Positions 16,348 to 57,090 of a stretch of DNA of 64,000 bases are shown here, piece after piece; position 1 is the first letter of the stretch; each line of letters begins with the position of its first letter. The notes under the pieces were generated by a model, which was given only the letters and a program-made list of their open reading frames with translations, made no database searches and was not told the origin of the DNA. This stretch comes from Capitulum mitella (lineage: Eukaryota; Arthropoda; Thecostraca; Pollicipedomorpha; Pollicipedidae). The position numbers were made by a program, and so were the translations under genes. The DNA is taken from NCBI GenBank assembly GCA_030062745.1, contig CP099841.1, positions 28,585,398 to 28,649,397 on the forward strand, written 5' to 3'.

Positions 16348-21888
<5,541 letters not shown>

Positions 21889-29318: not shown

Positions 29319-30613
29319 TCAAGACAAGAAGTCGATGACCTCGCCGAGCTCGCGCTCGCGCGCCTGCTCCTGCGCCCAGCGCGCTTCGGCCAGCTGCGGC
29401 GACACCTTGTACTTCTCGTGGAAGATGCGCTTGCCGCAGTGCTCGCACATCTTGCCGCCGTCGAACGGCGGCGTCTTCATGTACTGCACCAGGCAGCCGA
29501 AGTGGTAAAGGTGGCCGCAGTAGACGCGCTCCACGTGCAGATTCGCGCCGCCGTCCTCGACGATCTCGGCCGGGTCGGCCGGCAGTGCCACCTGTCGGGA
29601 TAAAAACGAACCGCTAGATTCAGGCTCGGCCGCAAACGCGACGACGCCAATCAACTTCGACAGACGGGCGGACAAGCACCGAAATTAGGCAAACGGTAAA
29701 TTACCAATGCCAATCCATACCATGGCAGCAATCCTTAATGTGTACGACGGGAAGACGCAAATGATTAAGAGTGCACGATTAAAAAACAGAGTGGATGATT
29801 AATACTGTGCAGGAAGAACGGACGACGCCACAATTCATCGCATTCAACAAACAGTGTCGCAATGGAGTTAACACCACCCCGTCCGCTCCGGCGGTCTCTC
29901 ACCTTCTTGCAGTGCTGGCAGACGTCGGTCGGGAAGCGTTTGAAGTCGTCGGTGAGGAAGCGCACCACGGGCTCGAGCGAGGGCCGCGGTTGGAACGGCG
30001 GCGCGTCCTTCTTCGGCCGCAGCGGCGGCTCGACGCAGCGGCGCGCCACCTCCGTGGCCTGGCCGCTGAGCCAGCGGCGCAGCGGCCCCGGCAGGTCGCA
30101 CGAGCGCTCCTCGACCGTGACGCGGTCGCGGGGGTAGTCGTGCGGCACCACCAGGTGCGCCCGGTAGTGGTAGCGCTGGCTGCGCAGCGACAGCGACACA
30201 GTGGACGTCTTCTGCTTCAGCTTGAGCTCGTCGCCGTCGCCGAGCATCTCGCGCCGGATGCGCGAGAGTTCGGCCGAGCAGCAGCTCAGCGGGTTCTCGT
30301 CCAGGAAGCGGCTGATGAACTTGGCCAGCGGCAGGATCTGCGGCTTGCCGAGCAGCTTCTTGGCCTCACCCTCGCAAATCTTGACGAGGCCGTCCAGCAG
30401 CTTGTCCGACAGGGTCTTGCTCTTCAGCTCCAGCAGGATGACCTGGCGCGGGTAATCGGACGGGAACTGGAAACACGCCGCCAGCTGTTTGAAGTCGGTC
30501 TTCTTGATCTCGATGCGCACCATGACCGGCACGCAGGTCACCAGCTTGCTGCCCGGCACCACGTTCTCACACATCTTCTTCACCTCGTCCAGCTCGTCGT
30601 TGATTAGTCCCAT
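29319..30613 (-). CDS. Double-RWD, RING-H2 finger protein (probable E3 ubiquitin ligase)
   Basis: Two exons: 30613-29903 and 29591-29319, phase 0, 327 residues. The N-terminal RWD domain (about 1-115) has the characteristic YP turn in FPSDYPRQVILLELKSK. A second RWD-like unit (about 130-230) repeats it as VPHDYPRDRVTVEE. The C-terminus is a RING-H2 finger with ligands C232, C235, C262, H264, H267, C270, C286 and C289 (CQHC, CGHLYHFGC, CEHC). The intron falls between ligand pairs one and two. RWD folds bind E2 or partner proteins and RING-H2 fingers recruit E2-ubiquitin, so ligase activity is inferred. The domain order recalls FANCL, but I cannot show orthology. The start is 108 bp downstream of the BLOC1S3 stop. 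Long plus-strand ORFs over this locus are antisense shadows. Confidence 0.85.
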
Positions 30614-30730
30614 GGTGAGGACAGTTTTAGTCGATTTGGATTTCAGCGGGCTCCAGGCGCTCCCGACGAAGGATGAACGTTGGAAAGTCCCACCGTATCG
30701 GAGTGGTACGAATCACACTGACTAGATCTT
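30614..30730 (-). promoter_or_regulatory. Compact intergenic promoter of RWD-RING gene
   Basis: Only 108 bp separate the BLOC1S3 stop (30722) from the next ATG (30613). Immediately after the BLOC1S3 TAG the minus strand reads TCAGTG, close to the arthropod initiator TCAGTY, so the downstream promoter may start at the end of the upstream gene. No AATAAA for BLOC1S3 was seen in the gap. Confidence 0.4.
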
Positions 30731-36466: not shown

Positions 36467-36558
36467 ACATCTGCATCAGACAAGGTACCCACGACATTAT
36501 CCCGCATTTTCCACATCTGCATCAGACAAGGTACCTACGACAGTATCTCGCATTTTCC
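36467..36558 (+). repeat. 46-bp tandem duplication just upstream of Art8 start
   Basis: Copies at 36467-36512 and 36513-36558 both begin ACATCTGCATCAGACAAGG and end CGCATTTTCC, with few differences. A TTCCAACAG acceptor-like site follows, 8-20 bp before the Art8 ATG. This may be a 5' UTR intron end or a promoter repeat. Confidence 0.85.
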
Positions 36559-36580
36559 AACAGTGCCCAGATCTGAAAAC

Positions 36581-39500
36581 ATGGAGCAGGACCTGCCAGC
36601 AACAGCGCCTCTGGCGGCCGACTGTGAAGCTCCACCGGCCGGCGTCGCCGCGGAGACGGCGTCCCCCGCAGGCGGCGGTGGAAACGTGCCGGACGGGGAC
36701 GGCTTCTTCAGCAGCTACGAGGACATCGAGGTGGGCTAGCTGCTGCCACTGGGCGTGTCGGGCACCGCGTCTGGCCGGCCGGTGCCGCCCCCTCCGTCTG
36801 CCCCCTCCCCCGCGGCAGACACATGAGCGGTGGAGGCCACTTAAAACTTGGCACGTTCGGGCCGGGAGCGACCGGCCACAGTGGCTGGTATTAATACCAA
36901 TGGCCGTCGTTAGCATATATGACCGGTTTCATGTGCGTCCTTCGACGCCATTGAACCGGATCAATGCATCGATCACGCCCGGCGACGGCGGCGGCGGCGA
37001 CGGACGCGCCGCGACCGGCGCCGCCGGCGGCCGTGGCCGTGTTTGCCCGTCCGGTGGGCGGTCCCGGGGGCGCCGCCGACCCCCCGCCGGCCGCCGCCAG
37101 CCGCCGCCGCCGCTCCGTCTCTGTCCGTCGGTCGCGCGGGCCGGTTTTTCAGGCGCCAGACTGAGATTGGACGACAAAGTGGCCGGCCGGTTTCTTGCGG
37201 GTATGGCGTCTCTGGAAGAATAGATGGCATGAAGATGAGGTGTCTCGTTGGTTTCTTTTTAGTCGTCTGAGACTGATATTCATTGCTGTTCGACGCTTAT
37301 CCGTTTGCCGTGTGCGATCTGTAGTGTAATTCTGCGGAGATTTATCTTCTGTTTTGTTTGCACTAATTAGTAATCTGGGCTGGGTGGCTGGGAGTGCGAC
37401 CCCGGGGGTTTTCGAAGTTGCACTAAAACGATGATCTTGATTCTTTAGAAATTCTGCGAAACTGGGTTTCCAACCTTTTCACGTGCTCTCTGAGAATTTG
37501 AAATGATACGTTATTGGTGACGACGGAGTTCTAATCGCGAGGATTCAGGTCTTGTAGAACCGTGTAAAAGTTAAAAAAATCAAAACCTTAAAAACATGTC
37601 AGAATCCTGATCCGCTACGGTCCGTCATAGCACAATGAACGTTTCCAACGTTGCACGGTACAATGGTTATTCATACATATCGATAAGTGTCGCCCATGGT
37701 GTCAGTGACCTCCGAAACTGGTTAATTCGTTAAAACTCGTCCTAGGTCAAAATCATGCATTGAGCTCAAAAGACTTTTATGTTTTATTGACTTTAGAAGG
37801 ATCATATAGAGATCGGAAGCGCCGAGTTGCATGGTGGCAGTAGTTTCGGTCCCTTTTTACCACCGTTAGTGGTTTTTAGAGTACTTCAAAAACACCCTTT
37901 TAGATGCATCCCATTGGCTCCTTTAGAAATCAGAATCCACTGACATGACCTCCCGTATGACATGGTATGTTCATTTGTAGGGGCATCGTGTTAAACAGGG
38001 TCAAAACGGGCATCGTGGTGTAGCCACAGCACCAAGCTACGCTCTCGTTTCTGTTTTGTTGCTCTCTTACATCAGGTTTGGAAATAGATGGGGTCGCACC
38101 TTCCCGCGCTGTCGAATGTGAGCAAATGACAAATACTGAGGAGGTTCAGCTGCATTATCCTACGCTACTAATCGCCGAGTTTTATCGCTACACGGTGATT
38201 TACAGCCGTGTCCATGTAGTGGAAGGCATGACCGATAAAATTGGCGTTCGGCGCCGTAGAAGGAGGCAGGCCAAGACCAGTTTTGTTTCCAAATACGTTA
38301 CCGGGGAGATTCGTTCACATGTCTGGCGCACATGGATTTGATTAACGCCGTTGTATTTAGGTGGCCGAGGCAGGGCTTTTGCTTTAGTATGATAATACAT
38401 AAAAGGCGCTTTCTCTAACAGGTTGAACTTTCGAACTTGACATTTTACCTGTCACATGTTCTCTTTCATGTTGTCTCGAAATAAGGAGTTGGGAACTATA
38501 ATCGCCGTTGGCGTCGGCGTTGGAAAAGAGTTTCCAGGCTTTTGCAAACTGTTCTTTCGTCAGCCTGAGACGAAAAGCTGACGAAAGTTCTTCCTTTTCG
38601 TCAACCTGTCCTCGCAAGGGGCAAGCTAGTCGGCGGACCTTGAAGTTTCACGTATGGGAGGCCGTGCCCCGTCAAATTTGGCCGCTTTGACGGTGCTGCT
38701 GAGGCCCATATTTCAGCCGGTTCCCGAGGCCGCTTAATTACGGTCAGACGATGACGCATGCTGGCCTCGCGAGGCCTCTGCCGGCTGCGGCCGGTTTTAT
38801 GAGTTCCCGGTGCTTAACGGAAGAGCGCTGTGAAAGAGTAGGATTAATAGCGCGCCTGGCTCTTTTTCGTGTCTGAGGCTGCCCGTCTCGAGCCGCGTGC
38901 GCATCTGTGTTTTGTCTGGCTCATTTTTGTTCTGCGTTATGTATGCCAATCATTTATCTCCGTTCGACAGTAAAGCTCCGTACATATGGAGCTCGGACGA
39001 GACCTTTGACGTGAGCATTTGCGTGTAGGTCTGCAAGAAGGACTCCTCAGGGGCAGCGAATGTAACACCATGTGCTATGGCTTCTAGCAAAATAGGCCCG
39101 GTGCGGTGAGAGGTTCTGTGCGGGATGGGAGAAGACAAACGTTGCAGTTTGAACCCATTTGTTGCTGATGGTGAGGCACCCTCGTCAGTATCGGCTATCG
39201 GAAGATGCGACAAGTTAACAATCTGCGGCCGACTCAGCCAAGTAAGATCTCGGAGGTGGAGCGGGAGCAGTTTTGGGGAGCGATTTGAGAGCCGGAAAAT
39301 TGGAATTCCTTCTCGGCTCATCGTCTGACACGGGCTGGCTGGGCTGCGCCGACCATTTGCCGGCTGATCCGCTCCCGCGGGAGGCGCTGTCGGGCGTGTT
39401 TTGCAGCGGCGCCGACCGCTGGCGTGCCAGCACGCCTTCCGGAGCCACTTGGCGTCGGACGTAAACAGCTGAGCGGTGCGTGTGCGCTCCGCTAAACACG

Positions 39501-42500
39501 GGTTCGGCCGGCCCTGCCACGCCCCCGCCGGCTACCCCCTCCTCCCTTTAACCCCCTGACGCCAAGACGTGAGACGCCGTCCGGGGGGGGGGGACTCGGC
39601 CGGCCGTCCCCGAAAGCCCGGGAACCGAACGGTCCGCTGGAGGGCGCTCCCCGCCCCGGGACTTGAGATGCCCAGCCGGCCGACGTGGGCTGGACCTGAG
39701 ACGTCGCGTGTCAGCCGCCGGCTGGGTGTGTCGGTCGGGAGCGCTGGGCCTCGTCCGTCCCGGGCGGTGCCCCAGATTCAAGCACAGTCATATCGGGAGA
39801 GGCGTCCATTAGCGGGCGGGGGCGGGTGCAGAGATCCTTCGAGGTAGACGAGATGGGATTTCTTGTGGACCGAGCCGGTCGGTGACGCACATCCCCCAGC
39901 GCTTCCGGGTTCCCCTATGTCCGCGGTGTACCCTCTTCTGGAACGGTATCTTCTGGCGCGAAGGAATTATGACCCCTTATGTTTCAGTTGTTTTCTTTGA
40001 CAGAAAGTTTAAAGAAACTTTCAGTTTAGTCAGTTCAACTCGGGTCATTTGCAGCTCGGTGCTCAACAGCCGGGATGTCAGTAAAGCTGTGCCTGGTGGA
40101 TGGAACATTAGCATATTTATCTCTTCCGTTACAGAACAGCCCAGCTTCGACATTCTCGCAACATCATTGTAACACACATCGCATCAACGCTGACATGCCA
40201 CAAGTGTATGTCAGATGTCCGTTAGCTTCTTACGTCGAGATTATCTGATGCTGTCGCGTACCTCTGAAGTCAGGGCGTATATCGTCACCGGCGACAGCCG
40301 CCCACCGTCGGACGCGCGCCATTTTCCGTCGACTTTCCGCCGCGGGCTGAGCGTTTTTCATGTCGTGCCCTGCGTTGTCTCGTAAACAGCCGCAGAGACG
40401 GCGCGCGGTAATATATGCGGGGCCAACACGCGGTCGGCCATAATTTCAGGAGCGGCCGGGCGGCGCTGTCGCGGCGCGTTTGGCGCGATGGCTCTGTCGA
40501 AACGCCGCCGGCCGGGCTTGTTTTCGTTTTCGTCGGCGGGCCGGGCGCCGCCTCCGCCCGCCGCGCCGCCGCCTGTGATCCGGAAAATGACGTCGTAAAC
40601 CGAATCACCCGATCGTGCGGCCGGACGCGCCATTCATAACGTCCGCGCTGGAACGGTGTATTACCGGCGTTTTGTGGTCGTGGAGCTGGTGGCTGGTGTG
40701 TTTAGTAGGGCTTGAAAAGAGATCTTTGTAATGGGACGCGTGGCGCCCCACCTGAACGCTCACCCCTTACTGCTGGCAAGTTGTGCAAAGTGAACGTGGT
40801 GAATGCAACAATCAACCCGAAAATTATTGCTGCTCGTTAATGGGAATGTTGCTCCTGAACATGTGGTTTCGACCTAACCAAGTTGTACCCTGTAGCCGTA
40901 GAAGCCAGTCTGTATTGTGCGTTATTGCTCATACCGGCTTTTACGGAGGTGCAGACCGATCTTTCAGTTTTCCCGCACGTCCTTTTCGGCCTTGTTTTGT
41001 GTGCAGCTGTTGCGTGACGTCACCAACCATGGCAGGCATTGGACACTTGCGTTCGATGGCGTGCGCAGTTCCGTATCCCGTCATATCGGCGGATGACAAC
41101 ATATTATATGTTTTAATTCCGTGCGCTTTCTGAACCTTCTTGACATGAAAAAAGAAGAATGCTGAAAATGTTACCGGTGACATTTTATCAGATCACGCAA
41201 GTCTTATGTGAAAAGTTGACCGGAATGAAACATTGTCTTTAAGACAAGGTTTTACTGTCTGGAGCGAAGCCTTATGCTGATTGGGACGTATTTCAGTTAT
41301 CGGAAGACATGATATTGAGTATTCGGCGGGGTCAGATCATAACGCTTTCTGTAGGCTAATAGCTTCACGACCACTGAACATCGAGTCATGAACTTTTGTC
41401 AGAAGATAGCGAAATTTTAGGTTTTTTGACATTGGCATTCGAATGCGCATTGCATTATGTGCAGGTTGTTTTGCGTGCAAGAGTTGTTTTCATTACAGGA
41501 ACAAGGTTTTTGTTTATAGACCCTTTTCCGTGGTTGTTGTTGAACTGCTCAGTAATGATAACGAATTACAACATAGACGCTTGTAACACCTGTTCAAACG
41601 TATAGTTCTTCAGACATATCGTACTTAAATAGTTCGGTAAATATACTCTTGCATCGCGAAATACATCAAGGGAAAATATATTCCTCGCAATATTCAAAAA
41701 TATGCTGCCAACTTACAAACAAACGCAGTAGGCCACGATCTCCATGCGTCCCCCAAGGCGTCTTACTGGTTTTGTTCATTTCTGCCTCGACTGGAACGGT
41801 TTAGCTTAGTTCCGTTCTCCGGGGTTTAAGTCCTACACACTTCATGCTACCACAAAAAGTTGCTACGCGATTACTGTTGTAGAAACTGTGTTGGCGACGT
41901 TTGAAGTGAATTGAATTTGTTAATCTGTTGGTGTCGCGGAAATCCAGAAGCATGTTTTCCTGTAACCGTAACGTCGTTGTGGATCGGTTTTCTCCCGTTA
42001 GTGATCTTTCTGTTATTTTCCTCTTCATCAAAATCATCATTGATATTTATGTGAATTGTGCTTGAAACATCATGTTAGTCCGCTTTGTTGTTGTTCACAC
42101 GACCAGCAAGCGATAAAATTTGTACATATTTCTTGACGTAGTTTAAAATTCGAGCCTGAACGTCGTCGGTTTACGCTGTGAAAGGAAATCGATCTGTCTT
42201 AAAGTTTGCCTGGGGCCGACGGCGGGTTTTGCCTTACCGAAGTTCCAGCCTCCAAGTTTTACATGAAATCAATCTAATTTTGCAACTTCTGAGTGAATAT
42301 GGTATGTCGGATCGGCTCTGAGTCATTGGTCTAACTTTCTTTTCAGTGATTGCTGGGAGAAGAAGCAGATTTCCATGGAAATCCATAATGCATGTTTTGG
42401 CTCGGCTGTGCGTTTGAGACAGCTGACTGTTGTTCAGTTCTAGTGCTTCAGAAATTTGGTCCCATCCGTGAGTGGGACAGGTGAATTTGGTGGCATCTCT

Positions 42501-45500
42501 CGCTAATCCGTCGGGATGGAGACACTTGTCTCTGTTCTGTCAGGATGCGGTGACATCTGTCTGTAATCTGTCGGGATGCCGTGATGTTTGCCTGCGCTGT
42601 CGGGGTGTGGTGATATTTGTCTGCTCGAATGGCAGGTGCATCGTCTGATGGTGTTCGACAAGCCCCGAACGGAGGCATATCAGAACGCCATTATGGACAA
42701 CCGGCACCTTTTTGAGGACAAAGTGGTGCTCGACATCGGAGCTGGAACAGGTCAGTCCACTCCGCTGCCAAGTGGAAGACTATGCGTGTGCTGGTGTTGC
42801 GTTAATTTAACCCCGTGTTTTTGGAACCCCTAGAGTATGGCTGTTAGAAAGAATATTCGTTGTCCTTTAAATTCCTACTGCGTCATTTTTCACCCACAGA
42901 AGGGTTAATGATAGGTACTGGAACGGTTAAATAATGGCTATCCTAAAAATGCGTTCACTCCTCGAATGGTGTCTTTCAGATGGATAACGGACACTGTTAT
43001 GTTATGCGCCGTTTCTACCGCAATTCGTCTATTTTCTTAAGCATTTTGTTTTATGCTATGAAGGCATAATGAAGGTGCACGTTGTGAAATGCTTTGCTCA
43101 TTAGTAGCCCTGTTCACAGTGCACAGCTCGCTATTGGTCGCCTAGGTAACTGGCAGACGCGATGCCAGGAATGCCGCCCGGGGAAATGGAGGAAGGCGAT
43201 AGAACACTTGGTTTTTGTCGGCTGCGCACCGTAAATGGTTAGATTATGAAAATATTTAGGTCCTGCAGCACGACTGGCGTCGAAAACTTCCTTTACGTCA
43301 ACTTTCCCAGCAACCTTTGTCTACCTCCGCCCCTGAATTGGAATTCTGCCCCTGCGTAATTCCCCCTGGCCTCTCTCGCCGAAGGTTGCCAGATCGGCCC
43401 GACTGCTGACCCGTCGCCTAACCAAAATATTTCTGTCGATTTACGGACGACACGACTGAAAATATGTCAGCGTAGTCTTTCCGAAAACCTTGACGCATGG
43501 ACATGCAAGTACACTAAGTAAAGATTGCCGTCAGTACCTGGCTATAAATAACTTAGATTGAAATTACCTACCTCCTGCTTGACAGGCTGCTCTCCGAAAG
43601 AGGTCGCGAATATGTTGTAACGGAAACGCTGCGAAAGCGCAAGAATAACGTTTAATCATTGGGCATAAGCAACAGCTGATTTCGAGGTGAAAATCAAAAA
43701 TCTTCCCGTGCACGATAAACTGATGCCAAAAGATGCTGCAGTGGGCGCGGTTACGGGCTCATAACGTACTTTAAGCATCATAACTTGTGACTTTGTTCAA
43801 ATCATGTTTTTCTTTGTTAATAAATCCTGGCAGACGTTTGCGTTCACCACGAATACCAAACGGATTATAATTTGCACCTCTAATCTACGCAAAGAATCAT
43901 CATTGCCACCTGGCATAGCTGAAATGTTATATATCAGTAGGAATGTTGCTAGCAAAAATCTTGTAAGGTTCGGCTGATACAATTCTTTTAACACATCTTT
44001 TCGGAATCCTACCTTTTATACCTCACATCACGATTTAACTTGTTTCACATTATATACAACCATATCCGGGGACAATCCAGTATGGCCTAGAAAAACAACC
44101 AACTGGTTATTTAGGTACCCAACGTTGTGCGTTGTGAACAAGGCTAATGGTTGCATTGAACGCTGCGCATTTACCATAATGCCTGTAGCTTACAAGGCGT
44201 GTACCGCTTCGAAAAGGAGCGCGATGATCGTATCATTATCGGTGTGCACTATGCATTGCATACGTAAGGAATGCCTTTCATGCTTTTAAGGCCTCGTAAA
44301 TGGTGCTTCATGTAGGTGTAAGAGCTTTTCGTTTGACAATTGCAGTCGTTTCATCAATTTGTCATGGTGCCCGTATATCATGTTCATAAAGAGCCCGCAA
44401 ATTGCGCGTCGATGGACCAGGAAGCTTTTCTTGCTCCATTCGTGGCTCTGTGTGGCGCGGCATGGAAAACCATGTTCGTCTAACGCCATCTCTTTTGAAG
44501 ATAAGCCGCTGTTAACCTCCCGCGTCCTTGATGCAATTACCGCTGCTTGAAATTCAATGCGCCACTCCGCGCCTTAGAGGCGACGCGAGGTGAGCAGCGG
44601 GTGGCCGGATCAGCGCCCAGTGTGCTGCACGGGCATTGCGGGGTTCGGCCCTGCCTGCCAGCCTCGGGCCGTGCTGACTGCTGGCGACTACAGAGGTGGA
44701 GGAGAGGGATGGACGTGCGGGGCTGAAGGACTAACGTGGGCGCCCGGCCGTCTCCCCTGAGGAGTGGGGGGAGGGGGGCGGAAGTACGAGGCTGGCGGAC
44801 TAGCGGGCGGGGAGGGGGGGACGTGCAGGCCTCTTGGGCCAGCGTCGCCGGCCGGCCGTCGCCCATTGAATGCCCAATCAGGGTGTCGGCGGCACGTGGG
44901 GCGGCCGCCTGGCCGTTAGCGCAGTCAGCGCGGCGCCGCCTGGCGAGCCGGCGCGGCGGAACGACGACGGCGGCGTCGGCGGCGGCGACGGGGCGTCCCG
45001 GCCCCGGGCTGTGACCGGAATCGGACGCGGCGGTCGCCGAGCGCGCGGGAAACGACGCTCGGTAAATCACGCCCTGAAGCGATGCCACAGCGTCCGGCAG
45101 GAGTCGTCGGGCGTGAACAGAATGACGTGAAGGGTCACAGTGGGGCTGTGAACCTTTGGTGGTTGGTGGGTGGGCGAGTTTGGACTCAGGTGGACGTCGA
45201 AGAGCTGTCGAATTATATGGGAGCTGTCGTTACTCTGTGAACTACCTTGACCAGAGCCCAGGTTGTCGGGTCTCCGGAGAAACTCGTACGCCGAACGGCA
45301 ACCCACGATGTAGTACTGACTCCGTGCAGCTTTGATGTGATTCTCTATTGTCGTCTTTGTGTGACGAAACGTTTGCCAATGTGATCGATGGCAAGGGGGA
45401 GATCACTGGCGTAGCAGGAGACGGCGGAATTCCCGAGACAATTAATGCCGTAACTTCGCGCGGCCTCTTGGTATGCGGCAGCCTCCTCGCCGTTTGTCAC

Positions 45501-48500
45501 TGCAATCGCCGCCGTCTTCGCCTCGTCAGTCACCGTGAGGAGCTGCTGAACCAGGCGCTGCAGACCAGGCGTTTCGTGGCGTGCAGGGACCGATCGTGCC
45601 GTGACCGGTTCGATATCCAGAGATCCAGTCGTCTGTCGCGAGAGGGCCGGGGTCACTATGCTGGCTGGAGATCTAATTTTCTGCCGTGATGGGGCGCCCG
45701 ATCACTATGCGGAGCTCAGTCTCAGTCGGCTGTGGTGAAAGCGTCCCAGATCTCCTGGCCTGAGCCGAGGTTCAGACGTCTGCGGCAGGAGGAGGCGGGC
45801 GCCGTGTGAGCAGGGCGGGGCGGTCTCCGCGGGAGGGGCGGCAGGTGACGGCGGCGTCGGCGGCGGCTGCGGCGGGGCGTCTCGGTCCGCCTGAGGATCG
45901 GCCGGTCGGCCGGGATCGATCGGACCCGGTGACGGCCCGCCGGCAGCCGCCAGCTCTCCGAAACGGAGCCGCCGCCGCCGGCCGGGCTTTTAGAGCGCGG
46001 ACCGCGGCGCCGCATCCGGCAATGACGGCCGGCGTGGCGCGCCGGAACCGCCCGAACTGACGCGGCCGCCCGGCCCAAGTTGGCGGAAGTTGGCCGACGT
46101 AAACCGAGCGGACCGGGCAAACATCTCCGAGCGAGTGGGAAGGCAGTACCGGCGTTGAGATGTTTTGCGGCCTCCGACGTCGCCCCGTCCCCGGCAGTGC
46201 CGTTCCGATGTCAGCCGCGGCGTCGAATCGCAGGAACCCTGCCACTACCGGTGCGATGTTTCAGTTTCAAATAACGCGGTTTCAAATCACTCAGACCGTG
46301 GCAGTTCCGTTGCAGTGGTGTTGCTTCACATTGGTCTCTGCCGTTGAGTCGGAGGGCCGTGTTAACTGCTTCGCTAGTCGCCTTTCATCGTCGCCGTCTC
46401 CGGTAATGAGCCTGACCGGCAGTCGAGTCGGGTGAAGCTGGTCGACGCGAGTTCCGCAGCCGAACGCTCCCTGACGCTCCCAGCGTGCCCGCTGACGCCG
46501 ACGAGCAGTCGCAATGCATCAACGCTGAACCAACCGAGAAATCCTGATGACAGTCAGTGCTCGCACCTCCTCTGCGGGACGCTGGCGGACAACCAGCGGT
46601 CGGCTTGACAACCCAGCCAGCGCTGCGTGGTTTCTGCGGGTCCGCTGAACTGCCTGGTTGATCACGCGGTTTCTGAGGTGTGGTGGTGGGGATGGCCTCG
46701 CACTTCGCGTGCCGACTCGGGGCCCGGATATCGCGTGCCTCGGCGCTGACCACGACTGCCGGCTGCGCAGCGGACGTGGGGGGAGTCGAACTCTCGACTT
46801 CCGGATCGCGTGACTCTGTCATCTGACACGCCCCACGCTCTGTAGTGACCTCAGACACGAACACTCGGCGAGTCCAGCGCACGACGCTGTACCCCTGTTC
46901 TGTTCTGTTCTGTTCTGGATGTTCTGGATCCGTCGCCAGCGTTTGCTTGTCTTTGTCGCTTAACGGTCACACTGCCTGTTTCGCGTGCCGTTGGCATTTT
47001 TCGCGTGTACGCACCGTCTGCATATCCACGCGCTAGGAGCATGATGTACAAAAATACAACTCAACCGTGTGCTCACATGCTTGGTCCTCTGTTATGGTCT
47101 ATTGCGCATCCCCTGGCTCAGCGCATTCCCCTCTCATGGTGCCTTAACTGGGAGGTCATCGTAACTTACTGTTGTGCCACGGGAGCCGCATTAGCTTTCA
47201 GCGGAGCTTCATCGCCAACATATTAGCATCAACGCGTTCTGAGAAAATAGCGCAGCCAACGTGTGCCAGCTGACACAACACGCTATCTCCGTCGGCGTCA
47301 TGTTACGAGGCGCATTTTACTGGATCCCGGGAAGCTAATTGCAAGTATTTATTTAGTTAACCCACAATTGATATGATCTCGATGATCCAGGCTTCTTTGA
47401 AATGTAGTTCCGAAAACGAGAGAAATTGGAAAACGTGAAAGTTTGAGGAGTTCTTTGTGCACGATGTTATGACGTATCACCAATCTCAGAACTAGATAAT
47501 TTTAAGGCACACATGTTATTATGGCTTCCGTGATCGGAAGGATTTGATTCGGCTTTCGTAGTTGAAGCCAGTCTCGAGCTGTGCGAGACGTAAGATCTGA
47601 CCTGACGTAACCTGCTATCATCTCAAATAGTCCTGATTGGTTTTTCGTAGCATCTTACCGTCGCACTGTTTTTATTTGGCTAAAAAGGGAAGAAAGCAAA
47701 GCAGAGAACTTTGCGAAATATTCAAAGACTTGATTTTTTATTTTTGCCGATCACGAGTTCACTGAACCATATTCCAACACATTTCGAAAATTATAATCGA
47801 GCGTTTTACATCGAGGAAAAATGGTTTAAATTTGAACATTGCTGCGTTATTACACTTGTCTTCAATCGGGGCTGAAATCTTGTAACACTGATCGCATCGT
47901 GGAGCACATAGAAACTTAACAAACATTTGAAATTATGTATCAAACGAAACATGAAGATGTTGGCGTTTGCTTGGGTTTACGTTTTTTTCACGTATTGCTT
48001 CGTTTGGCCTGTGCATGGTGTTAAGTAATGCACTGCAAAATGCCAATATTTATTTCTGAAGAAATCTCCCGTGGTGTTATAAAATATAGAACATATCAGT
48101 GCCGGCAGGGACCAGTGTCAAGATGGCCGTGGGGATGTTTTTAAGCAGTCTTCCAAGTTTCAGCCGCAACTTGCCTGTTCTGTCTCTTGTGTCCGGGGCG
48201 GCCGTCTGCCGTCTGGGCCGAGTATTGGCTCGCCCCCTCTCGATCCCGTCGTAAGACAGATATATTTGGCTAAACACATCAAACTGAGCATGAAACGAAA
48301 AACGTTGATGTTTTCTTTCATATGCATGTATCGGTATGTTTCAAAAATGATACTAAATGTCCCTGACGTGTCACAGCGTGATGCACTGCAAACTATAAAT
48401 GTTTGCTTTTGGTGTAAGGCTTTACTGAACATTTACGAAGTAAATCATATTGACACTGGCCGAAAGCCATGTCATGATAAACGCAGTTGTTTTACAATTT

Positions 48501-49485
48501 CGAATGTTTAAGCCGCAACTTCCAGCAGTTAAATGACCTGTGAGCTGTTTTGTCTTTTGAATCCCGGATGGCCGTCTGCTGACGGGCATTGTCGGTCTCC
48601 GCAAATACAGCTTAGTGCGAGGCGGATTGGGTATGAAACGTAACTTTGTGTCGTTTTCTTCAACATGCAGCTATCCACATGGTCAAAAACGACATCAAGT
48701 GGCTTTCCCGCGGGGCCATAGGAGGTTAGTGCTACGAGCTACGAATGGTGGCTTCCGATTGAAAGCTTTGCTGAAAGTCACAAGTAGTGAAACACATCAC
48801 CCACATCTAAAGGCCACGTCATAACGCACCCAGTTATGTAGCTTAACATCCCGGAAATGTTCAGCTGCATTTACCGGTCATTAAACGTCACGTGACCTGA
48901 TTTGCCTCTTGGATTTCGCTCGGCCGGCTGCGTGGCGCGGCCGTCCCGCCAGGCGGTCCCTCGGCCGGAGCTTTGCGTTTAGCCAAACCAAACGAAATTC
49001 GTTTCCCCGGCTGACAGCAGCTCTAAAGTTAATTTACGTGCTGAATGGACTGTGCGGTCATCGTTTTGTCCCTGGCTGGTCTTGACCATTGGCCATTCAT
49101 TGTGATTTGTAGTACTGACAGTGTAACATGGAAGAGTTCGTGGGATTCCACGGTTTGGTGGCCGCATTAAGAAAGAAGATTGTGATCTGGTGCCCCGATG
49201 CAATAGCAAATACAGTGCAGCTTGGTTGAAACTTATCTCAAGAGCAGTTGAAATAAGGCTGCTTCCTGACTTATGTTTCAGTTTGAGACTTTCAGCAAAA
49301 GGGAAGGGTCCTCCCAAAATGTCTGGAACGGATTAGTTTCGGTCTAGCAAGTACCAGTAAGTACACGAACTATCTGGAGGAGCGATGCGGGTTTCCTCCA
49401 GGAGCCCAGTGATATCAGTTATAGTTGGCGCATCACTAGATGATGACGCATTTGGCCGAAGGTACCCTCATATGACATACATATA

Positions 49486-49532
<47 letters not shown>

Positions 49533-52500
49533 TTATATACCCTAAGACTCTTTTTGTGTACATCGCAAAATAGCGAAATAGCAACAATTTGCGACATCTG
49601 TTCGAAATACTGTGCGTTAAAAATGCCGGCATCTGAGAACATAGGACTTTGGTTTTGGAGACATTTGATTTAAGTAACCCAATTTATTGACATCGAAACA
49701 GACGATAAATCGCTGGAGCCTGCTGATGGGACTAGAATGAAAGCTCTGGCACTTACATTTCGGCGGCTGTTGGTAATGTCTCCTTTTTAAGGGCAGTTAA
49801 ACCAGCTTTCGTCGTTGCAATGTCATCAGCAGTATAAACTGCACAGTGACTGAATTGTTTCGTTCTCTGTCTTGGAATTCAGCACAGTTCGCAATTACTT
49901 TGCCTTGGTTTCCTTGCCCGATATAAACTGAAGTCTGGAAAACAGCCTTTCCGTTTTGATAAAAAGTTCGGAACTTTTTCAGGCTGCTTGGTATTCATGG
50001 AACTCTCCTGGAATCCTCCGATGTGCTTGCATTCCCTAAATTGTTCGGAAGCCATGACGTGAACTTCTCAGATCGCGCGACCCCCGAGAATTGCCTGTTG
50101 GGTCACTGAAAGTGTATTCATTCGGCCTCAAAGTCAACAAACCTTAGATTGGTGTCATTTTTATATCGATAGCTCCATCAGTTTTTGAGATCAGGGGATC
50201 TTGAGAACACCCTGGAGCGGCCAAGAGCATACTACTCTTAAGTTGTGCGTGGGTAAGATTTTCTTCGAGAAAGACTGACGTAGCAACGTAAGTCATGCAC
50301 GAAATTTCAGTTTGCGCCGTGGCATGTTTGCAGTAATTCTGTTCCCAGTAACTTTCCTAAATCCCCGGCGCGTGAATGGCCCCATTGTGCTTGCCATCAT
50401 CCTTGAGTTCGACCTGTTGCTCGGCATTCGGCCGATGTCCGAGCCTTTGTGGCCGGCTGGTGGGTGGACCATTGTTCGGGTCAATTAATTCCCGTCTCGA
50501 ATCAGAAATCGGCGGGTGAAAAGGCCCGCGGCGCTTCTCCCGACCCGGAAATCTCATTTCCAATTCCGCGAAGCCCGGGCGCCCTGCCAATTGTTCTCTT
50601 TCAATGTTTAAAACATGGCCCGGGGGGAGATAATTTCATGTGCCGCCCCGCCGCACGCGGTTTGATCCGGTTACCGCTGCGGTCACGTGCTGACGGCGCC
50701 GCCGACTCAGAACGGTATCGAGGGTTTCGTGCTCTGCCGCGTGTGGCATCCGATTGGTAATGTAAATTTTAGTGCGTAGTAGCTTCTTCAGTTCGCGGAA
50801 CGTTGTCTTGCGCAAATCCGGTAAGTTTTCGGCCGCTTTGTTGTGGTATTGTGTGGTACTGTGGTAGTGTCTGGGCCCTTGATCACGCATGCCATGTTTC
50901 ATACTGGAATTCCCATTGGCAGAGGCCGGCTCGCTTGCGTTTGTGACATCACAAAGTTGTGTCGACCTTTCGCGGAATTTAACTGTTTGCTAAACCTTTG
51001 AAGTGTCTGTTTCGTATCCTCTGAGCCCGAATAAGCACTAAGCGTGGACCGGCGGTGTGGTATGCGGTATTGTCTGCAGTTTTTTCCTGTGATGCCTTTG
51101 TATAAAACCAACAGTTTTCCCCGTGTATCGAATGACACACTTTCACCTCCGCGCTTATCCAACTTATCTGTTTTTGTTTGGGAACCACGGCCCGATCCCG
51201 TAGGGTAGATTACTCCGGTCTGAAGAGCTTTCGTTTCATGATGAGCTTTGATGCTGCGCTGGCGGTGCAGGGACCTCTGTCCCGCCAAATCCTATTTAAT
51301 GAAGAGGATTTGGTGGTTCGGTGAGGCCAGATAGACCGAAAAATCGGGGTCCTGCGGTTGATTTCACCGGCCGCGCTGGGCAGTACACGGTGGTTAAAAG
51401 GAGAAACGATGAGCAGCGTCTCCTGTTATGTCGCAGCTGTCGCATTTTGGGAGCTGAGAAGCGCAGTTTGTGGTTGGGAATTTCGAATAACTGGCAGTTG
51501 CGAGAAAGAAGACTCGGCCGGAATGGAGAACGAATCATGTTTTTTGTGAAGGTCCTAAACAGCAGGAGATGCTAGAAACCCGCACTTAAGTTTAATTGAA
51601 GGCGGTTGAGGAAGCGGCCAAGTATTTCGTTGCACTGGGAAATAGACGGGCGTGATGGCGTTTCGGCAGCCAGGAGCGACATTATGAGGGACGTGATGTG
51701 AGTGTGGTCGGTTCGCGCCTCCTGAGTTTTGGGAATGCCGTGATCTTGCCAGTCTAATTTGAGGCTTGTATCGGATGATCCACGTGTATGGTATGAGATT
51801 GGGGCGGTGGTGGGTAACGATGATGATGGTCATCGGTCACGTTGTCATTTTCCCGTCCAGTCTCCCCCCTGAATTCCGCACTTGGCTCGTGACTGTGACG
51901 TTTGTGTCCCGAAACCTCAAGCAAGTAAGCACATCAGCTAACTATGCCCGCAACTTTGTCAGCCTATTCGGTCACCATTTCTGATATCCTTGGGTGCTTT
52001 TCTCGGCGCTGACCTCATCGTTGTCCTGCAGTCTGTCCTCATCCCGGTCGCAGCTCCATCCAGGACAGTAGGCAGAAAGTCGCCTTGATCGTATGTTACG
52101 ATCCTGTGAAATGAAAGGCAATGTGCATGACGTACGTTTGTGAGTGTCCTCAGTAATAAAACTACCGACAACCTTCACCATCGTTTGTCGTAATGTCTGA
52201 AATCCCTCAAAAATGTTAACACTTTCCTTCGTGTTTCTCATTTTGATGACATTCTACCTAGACATGAAGGCGTTTATCTAGAAATCTTTCAGAATTTTCT
52301 GCGTAGCGCGTTTGACAACCACGCGCTCCGGCCAATGGAAGCAGGCATTACTGCAGGCGGTCAGCTGATGACGCTAGTGGCCCAAATCGTACGCGAATGT
52401 CGCAGATTGGGAATGGCGTGGCCCATCTTGAAATAGTTTCCAAGTCGAAGAAAAGGAGTTCACGATGTTTTAAGATGGAATGATTGTGTTTGAATAACGA

Positions 52501-55500
52501 CATGTAAAAATACAAAGAAAAATGAAAACCTCAGTGGAACGAATAGCTGAAATAGTACTGAACCAGCGCAGCATTTGTACAAAGTTTTCAGTCTCGCACA
52601 TGTCAACACTTGGGTGTGACCACTTGTGGTTGGTAAAGATAGGAATGAAGAGCATGCGGTGGCACGGAGATTAGAGACTTCTGATTCATTTGCGTCATCG
52701 TCGGTCACAGTACAGTTGCCTTGGAAAGACAACGCAACGCTACCGGTTTTCCTCAGGACGAGAAAAACAGCTGGTGGTGGAGTCAGTGGGTGGAGTACGT
52801 CATTAGTTACGTTGTGTAGCCTTTGAACTAGTTCGTTTGTGGATTCTGAACCGCAGGGAATAGACTCAAAGATCGGTCTACTTTTATTGCGTTTTCTCAC
52901 GTATAGGGCAGCCAGTGGCCTTAAAAGGCCCCTCGCCATTCGGATTGGCGCCTGGCGGCCCTGTAGTCATTGCTGTTTTGGCTCCATGTTCAGCTGTGCC
53001 AGCGAGCTGTATTGGCATTTCAGTCCTAGGCTCTAACAGTAACCTTTCTGTCGGCAGGCGTGCTCTAACGGTGTCCTCTCTGTCGGCAGGCGTGCTCCGA
53101 CGGTGACCTCTCTGTCGGCAGGCGTGCTCTAACAGTAACCTTTCTGTCGACAGGCGTGGTCTGACGGTGACCTCTCTGTCGGCAGACGTGCTCTGACAGT
53201 GACCTCTCTGTCGGCAGGCGTGCTCTGACAGTGATCTCTCTGTCGGCAGGCGTGCTCTGACAGTGATCTTTCTGTCGGAAAACGTGCTCTGACGGGGACC
53301 TCTCTGTCGGCAGGCGTGCTCTGACGGTGACCCTCTGTGTCGGCAGGCGTGCTTTGACGGTGACCTCTCTGTCGCTAGGCGTGCTCTGACGGTGACCCCC
53401 TATGTCGGCAAGCGTGCTCTGACGGTGACCTCTCTGACGGCGACCCCTCTGTCGGCAGGCGTGCTCTGACAGTGACCTCTGTCGGCAGGCGTGCTCTGAC
53501 GGTGACTCCTCTGTCGGCAGGCGTGCTCTGAAGGTGACCTCTCTGTCGGCAGGCGTGCTCTGACGATAACCCCTCTGTCGGCAGGCGTGCTCTGACGATG
53601 ACCCCTCTGTCGGCAGGCGTACTCTGACGGTGACCCCTCTGTCGGCAAAACGTGCTCTGACGGTGACCTCTCTGTCGGCAGGCGTGCTCTGACAGTGACC
53701 TCTCTGTCGGCAGGCGTGCTCTGACAGTGACCTCTCTGTTGGCAGGCGTGTTCTGACGGTGACCTCTCTGTCAGCAGGCGTGCTCTGACGGTGACCTCTC
53801 TGTCGGCAGGCGTGCTCTGACAGTGACCTCTCTGTCGGCAGGCGTGCTCTGACGGTGACCTCTCTGTCGCCAGGCGTGCTCTCTCTGTTTGCGGCGCAGG
53901 CCGGCGCGCGCCGTGTGTACGCCGTGGAGGCCTCGGGCCTGCACGTGCTGGCCGCCCGGACGGCCGAGCGGACCGGCCTGGCCGACCGGGTCCAGGTGGT
54001 GCACGGCCGCATCGAGGACGTCCATCTGCCCGAGAAGGCGGACGTAATCGTCTCCGAGTGGATGGGCTTCTACCTGCTGCACGAGTCCATGCTCGACTCG
54101 GTCATCGTCGGCAGGGACAGGTCCGTGAGCGGCAGGGAGGATGGAGAGGGACGCGCGGTCACGACCTTGTGCGCCGGCGCACTTTTAAGTTTGTGGTGGT
54201 TAAGTGAGATTGTGCTGAATCTGTCCTTTGTGGTTTGGTATTTGTGGTATTTTTCGCCGACAAATGCAGTCGGCATGTTACCATGTGGGGTTTTTGGAGG
54301 TCAGAACAGAATCATGCAAGGCAGATCGTGCCCCATGGTTTGCTATTGGTTCAGTTGCACTTGCACACTGTAAGATATAAATCAGATTGCTTGTGCAATG
54401 CAAGTTACCCCATGTTATTTTATGCATGTCGGGATCAACCATTAACACGTGTTTTCACAGTTTGTATGTTGAACATCAGGCAGCAGATCCATGCGAACCT
54501 GGACTTTATGAGATTGTGGTGCTGGCTAGCCTAGCCGACAGTTTTTATTGCCAGAACAGGGCGCTTTGGTGCGTATTGCCGGGGCCTAGGAGTCGCACTG
54601 CTGGTTTTCATGGGAATCATGCGCGCAAATATCCGCGGCATGTGTAGGTTTCTGATCATTTCCTATACCCTGATTTCTATGACACAGAACGATGTGTTTC
54701 TGGGAGATATTTGATGGATCGCTCCGGAAAACAAGATTAATTTCCGTTAGGTGTTTTCTGTCGCAACTACCTTGCCGCTGTGCAACGTCTTCAGCGAGAC
54801 TAATGAAACTTTTCTGCTTGATTTGTCTGACGTGGCTCCTTCACCTGCTACTGTTCAAAGCTAATAACCGTCGTGTAGGTTACGTTGTCTGGTACCGCGT
54901 ACAGCCACCTCCTTTGACAGTTTTATCCAGCGAGCGGTTTCCAGTTTACAACGCAGCCCAGCTGACGCACTCCGGCGTAGTTCGTCACGTGCCCTTCCTT
55001 GTACATGGTCTGGGGGTAAGGTAGAGGTTTGTCTTGTCATTGGCTGCAATGTCGGGGTTCGTCCGGTCCCAGGACCCCAGAAGACACGAAATGTGATCGT
55101 ATGCTCCTTGCCATTCCCGAGACGTGGAATGCTTTCTTGTGTGCCCCGCGATGTAGTTTGATGATTTGTGATGATGTATCCGGTGGCGTGATCTGATGTC
55201 CTCTGACAGTAGTGATTACGTGGTTTGACGTTCTCTGACGCGCCTGTGACGTGGTGTGATGCAACCTGGTGTGTCCCGTGACGTGGTCGGATGTTCCCCG
55301 AGATGTCCGTTAACGTGATCTGATGACGTGCCTAGTGGCGTGGTTTGATGACGTGTCCGGTGACGTGCTCTAAGGACGCGTCCGGCGACGTGGTTTGATG
55401 ACGTGCCCGATGACACGGTCTGCAGGTTCCTGAAACCGGACGGCGTGATGTTCCCGGAGGTGGCCCGGCTGTACGCCTGTCCGTCCACCCTGGAGGCGTT

Positions 55501-57090
55501 TTACGGCGACCAGCTGGCCTGCTGGCGGCGGCCGTACGGCCTGGACATGACGGCCGTGGCCGAGGCCGCCCGCCAGAGCATGCAGAAGGCACCGCAGGTC
55601 GGTGCAGGGCGCCTGGTGCATCTCTCTTCCGCCGCCCCAGCCATGGGGGGATCTGCCGTTTCTGAGGTGTTGGCTAAGTACAGCACATAGGAGGAGAGGA
55701 CTGATGGTCCAGTTTAGCTAGTGTGCTGAGTTTAGCTCGGTAAATTACGGTGAGGTCGGATTAATGAAGGCTTATGATGATTGCGGAAAACTACCTAGTT
55801 TTTGTTCAGTGTATAACGTTTGGTATGGTTTGTTGGCCGATTTTCTGCTATTCGGGGAACAGCAAATCCTGTGGACTCCTGATAGGCGGCTATTTTGCTG
55901 CCGTGAGCATAGCGAACAACCAAAATCAGCAACGCGGCTGACTTTTTGTTTCAAGGAATCTTATGGCTTCTGACTAGTTCAATCGCTCGGCATTGGTCGC
56001 ATTTTTCATCACATATCGGGGTCGAATGACGTTCTCCAAGCCTAAACTGTCCGCCAACGCTCGTTCCATTGCAAAGTTGGGCGCACTGTTGTGACATTTC
56101 GGCAATCTATCATAGTTACCAAGCGGACGCAAGCCATATTGCAAAACGAACATACGCAGTGCAAAACCAACACAGGTCCGTATCGGGCCGTTGGAAATAC
56201 GTTTGGTATGCACTCATACTTCGTCTTGTTTACCGTCAGACACTGTGTACTGTCTGTGGAGCAGTTTTTTGCCCTGTTCTGCGCCTCAGACGCCGTGCAC
56301 CGTATGTGAAGCAGTTTTTTGCTCTGTACCTCTCCCCAGACGTGAACCGTTTGAGAAGCAGTTTTCTTCTCCTTACTCCGTCGCCGCAGACACCCTGTAC
56401 CCTGTGTGGAGTAGTTGTCTGCTCTGTACCCCATCCCATACACCATGCACCGTTTGTGGGGCAGTTTTCTGCTCTGTGCCCAACTGCACACGCTGAATAC
56501 CGTATAAAGCAGTTCCCAGGCATTGTGTACTGTCTGCGGAGCAGTTTTCTGGACTGTAACGCGCCCCAGAAGCAGTGCACGGTGCGTGACGCGGCTTGGT
56601 GGCCCGCAGCGCTGACTCCGGCCGCCGACAGGTGTTGCAGACCCACCCGGGGGAGCTGCTGGCCGAGCCGGAGCTGCTGCACGAGCTGCACCTGCAGTAC
56701 GTCGAGGCCGACGAGCTGGCGACGCTGAGCAGCCGGCGCTTCGTGACTGTGACGCGCGCCGGCCCGTACCGCGGCCTCTGCCTCTGGTTCAGCTGCCTGT
56801 TCCCGGGCGGCAGCGCGCTGGACACGGCGCCGCACGCGCCGCTCACCCACTGGAAGCAGACGGCCGTCGTCCTGCCGGCCGACTTCCAGCTGGAGGCGCA
56901 GCAGGTGGTCGGCTTCGAGCTGACTCTGGCGCGCAGCGAGGCCAGCCCGCGCCGCTACGGCATTGCGCTCAGCATGCTGGACGAGGACGAGCCGCACCCG
57001 GTGCCGTGCGGCTGCGTGCACGGCAAGTGCCGTCTGATCAAGGCGCTGCTGGATAAGGAAGACGAGGAACTGGAACGGGCGGGGGACTGA
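36581..57090 (+). CDS. Art8: Protein arginine N-methyltransferase, Art8 type
   Basis: Five exons: 36581-36730, 42636-42750, 53874-54120, 55426-55597 and 56632-57090 (stop 57088-57090). Junctions are GT-AG, phases agree, and the product is 380 residues. The Ala/Pro/acidic N-terminus (1-40) is longer than in fly Art8. FFSSYEDIEVH and the PRMT helix follow. The SAM motif I VLDIGAGTG is at 81-89, acidic VYAVEAS at 103-109, and the double-E loop SEWMGFYLLHESML at 149-162 with catalytic E150 and E159. The THW loop is at 300-302. The C-terminal EPHPVPCGCVHGKC matches the Art8 tail rather than PRMT1 or PRMT6. It transfers methyl groups from SAM to protein arginines. Introns are 5905, 11123, 1305 and 1034 bp, and each ends in its own tandem repeat. 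A 9-nt alternative acceptor after GTGTTGCAG in exon 5 would stay in frame. Confidence 0.94.
36960..37200. promoter_or_regulatory. CpG-rich block in Art8 intron 1 start
   Basis: Dense GC and CpG sequence continues from exon 1, so the Art8 first coding exon sits in a CpG island (about 36590-37200). Overlapping ORFs on both strands are composition artefacts. Confidence 0.45.
39340..40640. promoter_or_regulatory. CpG-rich blocks inside Art8 intron 1
   Basis: Two GC-rich patches (about 39340-39850 and 40280-40640) are separated by ordinary sequence. The second holds a 36-codon ORF, 40488-40598, starting MALSKRRRPG and Pro-rich. These could be alternative promoters or unmethylated islands. No family was recognised. 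Confidence 0.25.
42489..42635 (+). repeat. Tandem array at the 3' end of Art8 intron 1 (about 30-bp unit, 5 copies)
   Basis: Units at 42489-42518, 42519-42547, 42548-42578, 42579-42607 and 42608-42635. Each has GGTGACATCTGTCTG-like and CTGTCGGGATG-like halves. The last unit ends exactly at the splice acceptor GGCAG before exon 2. Confidence 0.85.
43000..44560. other. Art8 intron 2, first part, nothing recognised
   Basis: Unique intronic sequence without repeats or recognisable coding on either strand. Confidence 0.4.
44560..46890. promoter_or_regulatory. CpG-rich region inside Art8 intron 2
   Basis: Two GC-rich cores (about 44560-45060 and 45760-46240) share GACGGCGGCGTCGGCGGCGG, suggesting an old duplication or shared simple sequence. 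G-run tracts near 44745-44820 could form quadruplexes. Long ORFs occur on both strands without recognised domains. It may be an internal promoter or a nested transcription unit. Confidence 0.3.
47000..47930. other. Art8 intron 2, nothing recognised
   Basis: Ordinary unique intronic sequence with no repeat or coding signal. Confidence 0.4.
47935..48975. repeat. Diverged tandem triplication, about 350-bp unit
   Basis: Landmarks recur at about 350-bp spacing: GCCGCAACTT near 48161 and 48512, GGCCGTCTGC or a similar word near 48200, 48570 and 48925, and GAAACGAAAAACGTTG-like words near 47950, 48292 and 48635. The copies are old. Confidence 0.6.
48976..53025. other. Art8 intron 2, remainder
   Basis: Contains a TA microsatellite at 49488-49540. 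Otherwise unique, mixed-composition sequence with no recognised gene. Confidence 0.4.
49488..49540. repeat. (TA)n microsatellite
   Basis: TA tract inside Art8 intron 2. Confidence 0.9.
53030..53883 (+). repeat. Tandem array of 26 splice-acceptor copies, 32-bp unit, Art8 intron 2/exon 3
   Basis: Twenty-six units with a period of 32 bp (exceptions 30, 33 and 46). Each carries GGTGACCTCTCTGTCGGCAG followed by GCGTGCTCTGAC. YAG junctions fall at 53057, 53089, 53121, 53153, 53185, 53217, 53249, 53313, 53346, 53378, 53458, 53488, 53520, 53552, 53584, 53616, 53681, 53713, 53745, 53777, 53809, 53841 and 53873. Three units have lost the YAG. The last junction is the real acceptor, and the first 10 bases of exon 3 (GCGTGCTCTC) are the start of a further unit. 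The repeat thus spans the intron-exon border. Confidence 0.97.
55148..55425 (+). repeat. Tandem array at the 3' end of Art8 intron 3 (25-bp unit)
   Basis: The last units are at 55337-55361, 55362-55386 and 55387-55411, with a partial unit at 55412-55425 ending on the acceptor CTGCAG. The unit core is GACGTGGTTTGATGACGTG. Older, more diverged copies extend back to about 55148. Confidence 0.85.
56237..56610 (+). repeat. Tandem array in Art8 intron 4 (about 50-bp unit)
   Basis: Seven to eight units contain a CAGACACCGTGCACCGT-like part and GGAGCAGTTTTCTGCTCTG. Many carry a long pyrimidine tract followed by CCCCAG or CAG, strong acceptor-like sites. The real acceptor at 56631 lies just past the array. 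Confidence 0.85.

Follow-up and report, generated by a model that had tools for sequence, protein, structure and literature searches.

Tandem arrays at every coding acceptor of an arginine methyltransferase gene in Capitulum mitella, one of them with the anatomy of an amphioxus mirage

Tandem repeats that reach across splice junctions have been described from lancelets. According to PMC3087553, amphioxus globin genes carry minisatellite-like duplications of their intron-exon boundaries, called 'mirages' and named after Adh3, in which many units hold AG/GT signals, array length is unstable and splicing is apparently normal. Lancelet TnC and PGBD5 are described as further cases (PMC3902484). Other systems that bear on the subject include TERT VNTR6-1, an intronic VNTR with a 38-bp unit that alters splicing (PMC11830802), the Caenorhabditis elegans family CeRep25B, whose 24-bp unit is enriched in introns flanking alternative exons (PMC4039745), and the gain of introns by tandem genomic duplication (PMC3443670, PMC4974935). 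Here we report on a stretch of 64,000 nucleotides from Capitulum mitella (hereafter the window, meaning the whole stretch analysed), in which one gene carries such arrays.

This gene lies on the plus strand, where five in-frame exons between 36581 and 57090 join into an uninterrupted protein of 380 aa (joined ORF translation). Judged by its domains, the product is a PRMT1/6-type arginine methyltransferase with both the PRMT catalytic core and the C-terminal oligomerization domain present: Pfam returns PRMT_C (1.8e-20) and a methyltransferase domain (2.1e-11), and the best PDB matches are PRMT6 chains (6.7e-62, spanning residues 42-342). Art8 is a plausible name for it. No gap interrupts the PRMT6 alignment where introns 1-3 are removed, and one-residue gaps fall about seven residues to each side of the intron 4 junction; because the alignment runs through the intron junctions, the acceptors are well placed independently of RNA. 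The reading frame is intact when the last (exon-proximal) acceptor of every coding intron is used. The exons, each placed by the joined ORF and the PRMT6 alignment, are as follows.

36581..36730, plus strand: exon 1 (coding part)
42636..42750, plus strand: exon 2
53874..54120, plus strand: exon 3
55426..55597, plus strand: exon 4
56632..57090, plus strand: exon 5, through the stop codon

Two blocks are richer in GC than their surroundings, 38001-40000 in intron 1 (0.57) and 44001-46000 in intron 2 (0.61).

A TRF search of the whole 64-kb window returned exactly five arrays with a period of at least 25 bp and a score of at least 50, and all five are within the PRMT gene: four at coding acceptors, one for every coding intron, and one ahead of the start codon. 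In the list below, distances from the exons refer to the last recognisable base in a strict alignment to each unit, which is stricter than TRF.

36467..36559, plus strand: 5' array upstream of the start codon, two clean 46-bp copies (TRF: 46 bp x 2, 36467-36559), its 3' end 4 nt short of a candidate UTR acceptor and 21 nt short of the start codon
42507..42626, plus strand: intron 1 array, about 4 copies of 29 bp by TRF and unit alignment (TRF: 3.1 copies, 42531-42623), ending 9 nt before exon 2
53030..53882, plus strand: intron 2 array, about 27 copies of 32 bp by TRF (53030-53882) and unit alignment, ending 9 nt inside exon 3
55169..55422, plus strand: intron 3 array, 25-bp unit, 4.8 good copies at 55304-55422 (TRF: 4.4 copies over the same positions) and three scattered weaker copies upstream, ending 3 nt before exon 4
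56237..56583, plus strand: intron 4 array, about 6 recognisable 50-bp copies in two pieces (TRF: 4.8 copies, 56237-56477), fading 48 nt before exon 5

A preliminary description of this stretch had placed arrays at or near all four coding acceptors, and both TRF and the strict unit alignment confirm this. The distance that it gave, within about 20 bp of the acceptor, holds for three of the four introns but not for intron 4, where the copies fade at -48. Some of its details change: the intron 1 array has about four recognisable units by unit alignment instead of five, and the intron 2 array, said to end at or close to the acceptor, crosses it and runs 9 nt into exon 3. The 46-bp duplication that it noted before the start codon is the clean two-copy array at 36467-36559. 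Just downstream of this duplication lies the sequence ttttccaacag, with 13 of 20 pyrimidines before the CAG and 36564 as the first base after it; an intron ending at 36563 in the 5'UTR is a guess from these letters, and the site a candidate only. One more repeat sits beside the exon 5 acceptor, an 18-bp tandem repeat inside the exon (56652-56695, 20 nt past the exon start; TRF score 56) that encodes LLAEPELLHE-like residues.

Could ordinary intronic minisatellites, or assembly stutter, have come to lie at these acceptors by chance? Only one gene is concerned, 64 kb is a small sample, and the place was picked after being seen. However, when five arrays of the same lengths were placed uniformly on 36400-57100, counting a match where an array's 3' end fell no more than 160 nt upstream or 10 nt downstream of the first exon base, all four coding acceptors were matched in 0 of 1,000,000 trials and at least three in 128; these chance figures are descriptive, the hypothesis having been formed on the same data. 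Stutter, for its part, does not fit diverged copies with shared variants. We therefore consider coincidence or artefact highly improbable, and the arrays at the acceptors are real and non-random. The acceptors stand out less in a cruder periodicity scan that allows no gaps, since indels distinguish the copies in introns 1 and 4: 10, 28, 4, 14 and 43 of 853 75-bp stretches, a set that includes the arrays' own, score at least as high as the UTR site (set at 36565) and exons 2, 3, 4 and 5, respectively. At the donors of the PRMT gene, none of four has a TRF array (score at least 30, period at least 8) within 200 nt downstream.

For comparison, the window offers six acceptors in three other gene models: four in an RPL11 gene, one in an RWD-domain gene and one in a less certain gene at 10-11 kb. 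The first two are these.

21566..16354, minus strand: RPL11 (uL5) gene by PDB match, four exons seen, canonical acceptors, no arrays
30712..29322, minus strand: RWD-domain gene (Pfam RWD 3e-7), its RING-like C-terminal part below the Pfam cut-off

We are sure of the RPL11 assignment from the protein matches: the highest-scoring PDB chains are 4v6w (332.4 bits) and 6xu6 (329.7), both of which we take to be from Drosophila, followed by 7oya (329.2). The acceptor of the RWD gene was inferred from its open frame and canonical site. The gene at 10-11 kb may be a DM4/12-like arthropod gene; Pfam gave no confirmation of this, nor did a motif search aimed at the last exon find a match. None of the six control acceptors has a TRF array (score at least 50) within 800 nt upstream, against four of four in the PRMT gene (Fisher test, p=0.005); leaving out the less certain gene makes the control 0 of 5. 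The earlier remark that other genes here are free of such arrays is thus borne out, in a small sample of six acceptors in three gene models. There were no Rfam matches at the gathering score and no tRNAs.

The intron 2 array is the most informative of the five. Read from the acceptor, its unit is GCGTGCTCT, identical to the opening nine bases of exon 3, followed by GACGGTGACCTCTCTGTCGGCAG, so that the roughly 27 units string together a CTGAC resembling a branch point, a run with pyrimidines, a CAG and this 9-mer of exon sequence. CTGAC, which is close to the animal branch-point consensus, sits about 21 nt ahead of the CAG, and a CTRAY motif is found 12-30 nt upstream in 19 of 22 distinct YAG/GCGT sites (native site included). 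Cutting the array gave 27 pieces; with two partial pieces set aside, CAG is kept in 21 and the following GCGT in 22 of the 25 units counted. Within the window (both strands searched), GCGTGCTCT occurs 18 times, 17 times in this array and once where exon 3 itself begins, and it directly follows an AG in 17 of the 18 (16 of the 17 upstream array copies). Scored against the unit, the junction reaches 53 and the best 45-base stretch outside the arrays 22. When only the exon start was scored as a copy of each array's unit, the resemblance was significant in intron 2 alone (p 0.003-0.006; 0.06-0.71 for the other four arrays). Because the 9-mer opens VLSLFAAQAG, a stretch of the enzyme conserved in PRMT6, copying is likely to have run from exon to array. 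Units 1 and 4 have four variants in common, as expected from block duplication, and a trend towards younger copies near exon 3 is not significant (rho -0.37, p 0.067). The 32-mer has no exact match in viral_contigs, a collection hardly expected to hold such sequence. By anatomy, as read from the sequence, the intron 2 array is a mirage of the amphioxus type.

Minus-strand ORFs of 334, 233, 171 and 131 aa (52884-54101) cross this array, because its unit lacks stops on the minus strand (by inspection), and gene-prediction programs may mistakenly annotate a repetitive protein at this place. We considered the arrays as protein-coding sequence and rejected the idea; the 32-bp unit of intron 2 is not a multiple of 3, which argues against coding.

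The other arrays differ from that of intron 2 in what their units contain. No exon sequence was found in the units of introns 1, 3 and 4 by the exon-only scores (p 0.36-0.71), and we rejected the proposition that the exon start is a unit copy in every intron: it holds for intron 2 only. A wider junction window (-20 to +25) takes in intron bases adjoining the array; with it, intron 3 rises above background (p 0.005), intron 1 does so weakly (p 0.02), and at the UTR array none of 15485 stretches scores as high (site set at 36565, one base late); the intron 4 junction is unlike its unit (p 0.85). Within the intron 3 array region, 55290-55308 resembles coding sequence of exon 4 at 55447-55465 (16 of 19 bases, p 0.012 before correction for five tests), a likeness over 19 bases that hints at exon sequence copied long ago. 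We do not class the arrays other than that of intron 2 as mirages, a test for exon sequence in their units having found none; those of introns 1, 3 and 4 are acceptor-adjoining minisatellites.

Selection might keep such arrays if weak acceptors gained from them in branch points, in pyrimidine tracts or in acceptor context. All four native acceptors are indeed weak, with 10-12 of 20 pyrimidines, and the intron 2 units, given the CTRAY upstream of 19 of the 22 YAG/GCGT sites, are nearly complete 3' splice-site modules. Repeated splice signals are present in the units of introns 2 and 4: in the latter, six of eight copies start with CAG (lenient alignment), and at least 14 of 20 bases are pyrimidines before 4 of 16 YAGs, compared with 133 of 1730 YAGs in the window. 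However, the acceptor used in intron 4 is at least 240 nt downstream of these pyrimidine-rich sites, and repeated signals are not found in the units of introns 1 and 3. In both of these introns the consensus unit holds no AG, and CTRAY is found in the consensus units of introns 2 and 3 only, hence in just one of the two (all by inspection). Their array regions contain few YAGs, native ones included (2 in 134 nt for intron 1 and 5 in 304 nt for intron 3), and the intron 3 acceptor falls within the partial last unit, where the unit's TGATG reads TGCAG. Moreover, the pyrimidine fraction at -20 to -4 of the native acceptors (0.53-0.65) overlaps that of five measured controls (0.59-0.71). Selection for extra acceptor signal, one of the explanations offered in the preliminary description, is thus not supported as a general cause, and we regard it as unlikely. 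Nor are long introns a requirement, as had also been proposed: introns 3 and 4 measure only 1305 and 1034 nt, so that intron length is not the cause, and no arrays lie in the three RPL11 introns of which both ends are visible, about 1.0-1.9 kb long.

For intron 2 in particular, the array might serve as a bank of decoy acceptors, whereby use of an upstream site would lead to a premature stop and nonsense-mediated decay and array length would set output. Splicing to any of the 32 upstream YAGs in this array would bring in a premature stop; for 21 of them it comes after 8 nt, since the copied exon sequence leads directly into the TGA of CTGAC. The same is true, however, of the upstream YAGs in the other array regions (1 of 1, 4 of 4 and 15 of 15; 52 of 52 in the four regions), and since premature stops are expected of non-coding sequence, they are no sign of design or regulation. 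The copies in lancelet genes are reported to leave splicing undisturbed. A decoy effect of the intron 2 units is possible, but a decoy bank seems to us quite unlikely as the meaning of the array.

The arrays appear to have arisen separately. Among the pairs of consensus units (n=10), the best similarity has p=0.011 before correction, and the three pairs with p under 0.05 (introns 1-2, 1-4 and 2-3) are not convincing after it. Units of different introns thus look essentially unrelated, and we rejected the spread of one ancestral repeat to all introns, in agreement with the earlier claim that no single expansion explains them. What recurs is therefore the site and not the sequence, at four of four acceptors and none of four donors, as would be expected of a mutational process aimed at acceptors, be it an R-loop, a replication conflict or a spliceosome-linked break at intron 3' ends. 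Yet RPL11, a ribosomal protein gene and as such presumably strongly transcribed, more so than the PRMT gene, has arrays at none of its four acceptors, and the GC skew of the PRMT arrays is mixed in sign (-0.40 to +0.31); a transcription-linked R-loop cause, as raised in the preliminary description, is accordingly not favoured. In amphioxus, both kinds of boundary are reported to be duplicated. An acceptor-aimed process of this sort has, in our estimation, little chance of being the explanation.

We think it fairly probable that each array is a minisatellite that grew separately, through local tandem duplications that recurred at the 3' end of the intron. Such a duplication would add an upstream acceptor if the unit holds one, and the old acceptor would stay against the exon. 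In intron 2, the duplicated segment would have straddled the acceptor and carried along the nine bases with which exon 3 starts. Upstream copies would become intron and be spliced away, with the exon-proximal acceptor keeping the correct frame and the protein unchanged, after which the arrays would lengthen and shorten like any minisatellite. Here we infer the direction of copying, the use of the last acceptor, neutrality, and slippage or unequal exchange as the engine. The marks of block duplication count in favour of duplication, as do the lancelet genes that splice normally with the same anatomy. Repeated local duplication at acceptors, already among the candidates of the preliminary description, is thus the best reading and is demonstrated for intron 2, where the unit consists of the acceptor plus nine exon bases, but the other arrays lack demonstrable exon copies. 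In intron 4, moreover, the copies nearest exon 5 are the most decayed, the opposite of growth from the acceptor. Neutral duplication alone does not favour acceptors over donors.

A bolder idea is that in this lineage unrelated arrays are seeded again and again at acceptors, and not at donors, by some step in the biology of intron 3' ends, such as the handling of the lariat or branch point, breaks at acceptors that are tied to transcription, or selection for acceptor context. Mirage formation would then be acceptor-directed instead of a lancelet curiosity, and the length of the intron 2 chain, with its approximately 27 working-type 3' splice sites, could tune output. We hold this as a speculation, and a rather doubtful one.

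If acceptor arrays prove common in this genome, they would provide many natural replicates for studying how the spliceosome selects from a series of near-identical 3' splice sites, as well as a test of intron ends as duplication hotspots; if confined to the PRMT gene, they make a striking single case. They could also take the range of mirages beyond lancelets, and intron sliding and gain might draw on them as raw material. A literature search of titles and abstract openings, with subscription journals mostly outside its scope, turned up no account of boundary-copying arrays from hosts other than lancelets, and none of a gene that has one at every acceptor.

Set against the known systems, as these are outlined in their publications, the intron 2 array is like the amphioxus mirages in lying at an exon-intron border, in holding splice signals in many units and in copying exon sequence; unit lengths given for amphioxus are 10-72 bp in Adh3 and 150-160 bp in a globin gene. 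Unlike those mirages, the PRMT gene has an array in each coding intron and at acceptors only, and in introns 1, 3 and 4 the array adjoins the border but shows no demonstrable exon sequence. Hosts differ as well: mirages are described from lancelets, whereas Capitulum mitella is an arthropod. TERT VNTR6-1 is comparable to the intron 2 array as an intronic minisatellite and in unit size and copy number, but it is some 3.5 kb away from the exon and G-quadruplexes are presumed to mediate its effect, whereas the PRMT arrays are at the acceptor. CeRep25B is likewise an intronic minisatellite and is statistically linked to splicing; it is, however, one family common to many genes, and placement at acceptors is not among the features given in its outline. 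Intron gain shares with the PRMT arrays a tandem duplication near splice signals that splicing tolerates, but it makes a new intron, whereas the PRMT introns were lengthened at one end, many times over. The kind of array described here is thus known, while its completeness in one gene and its restriction to acceptors go beyond the descriptions that we found.
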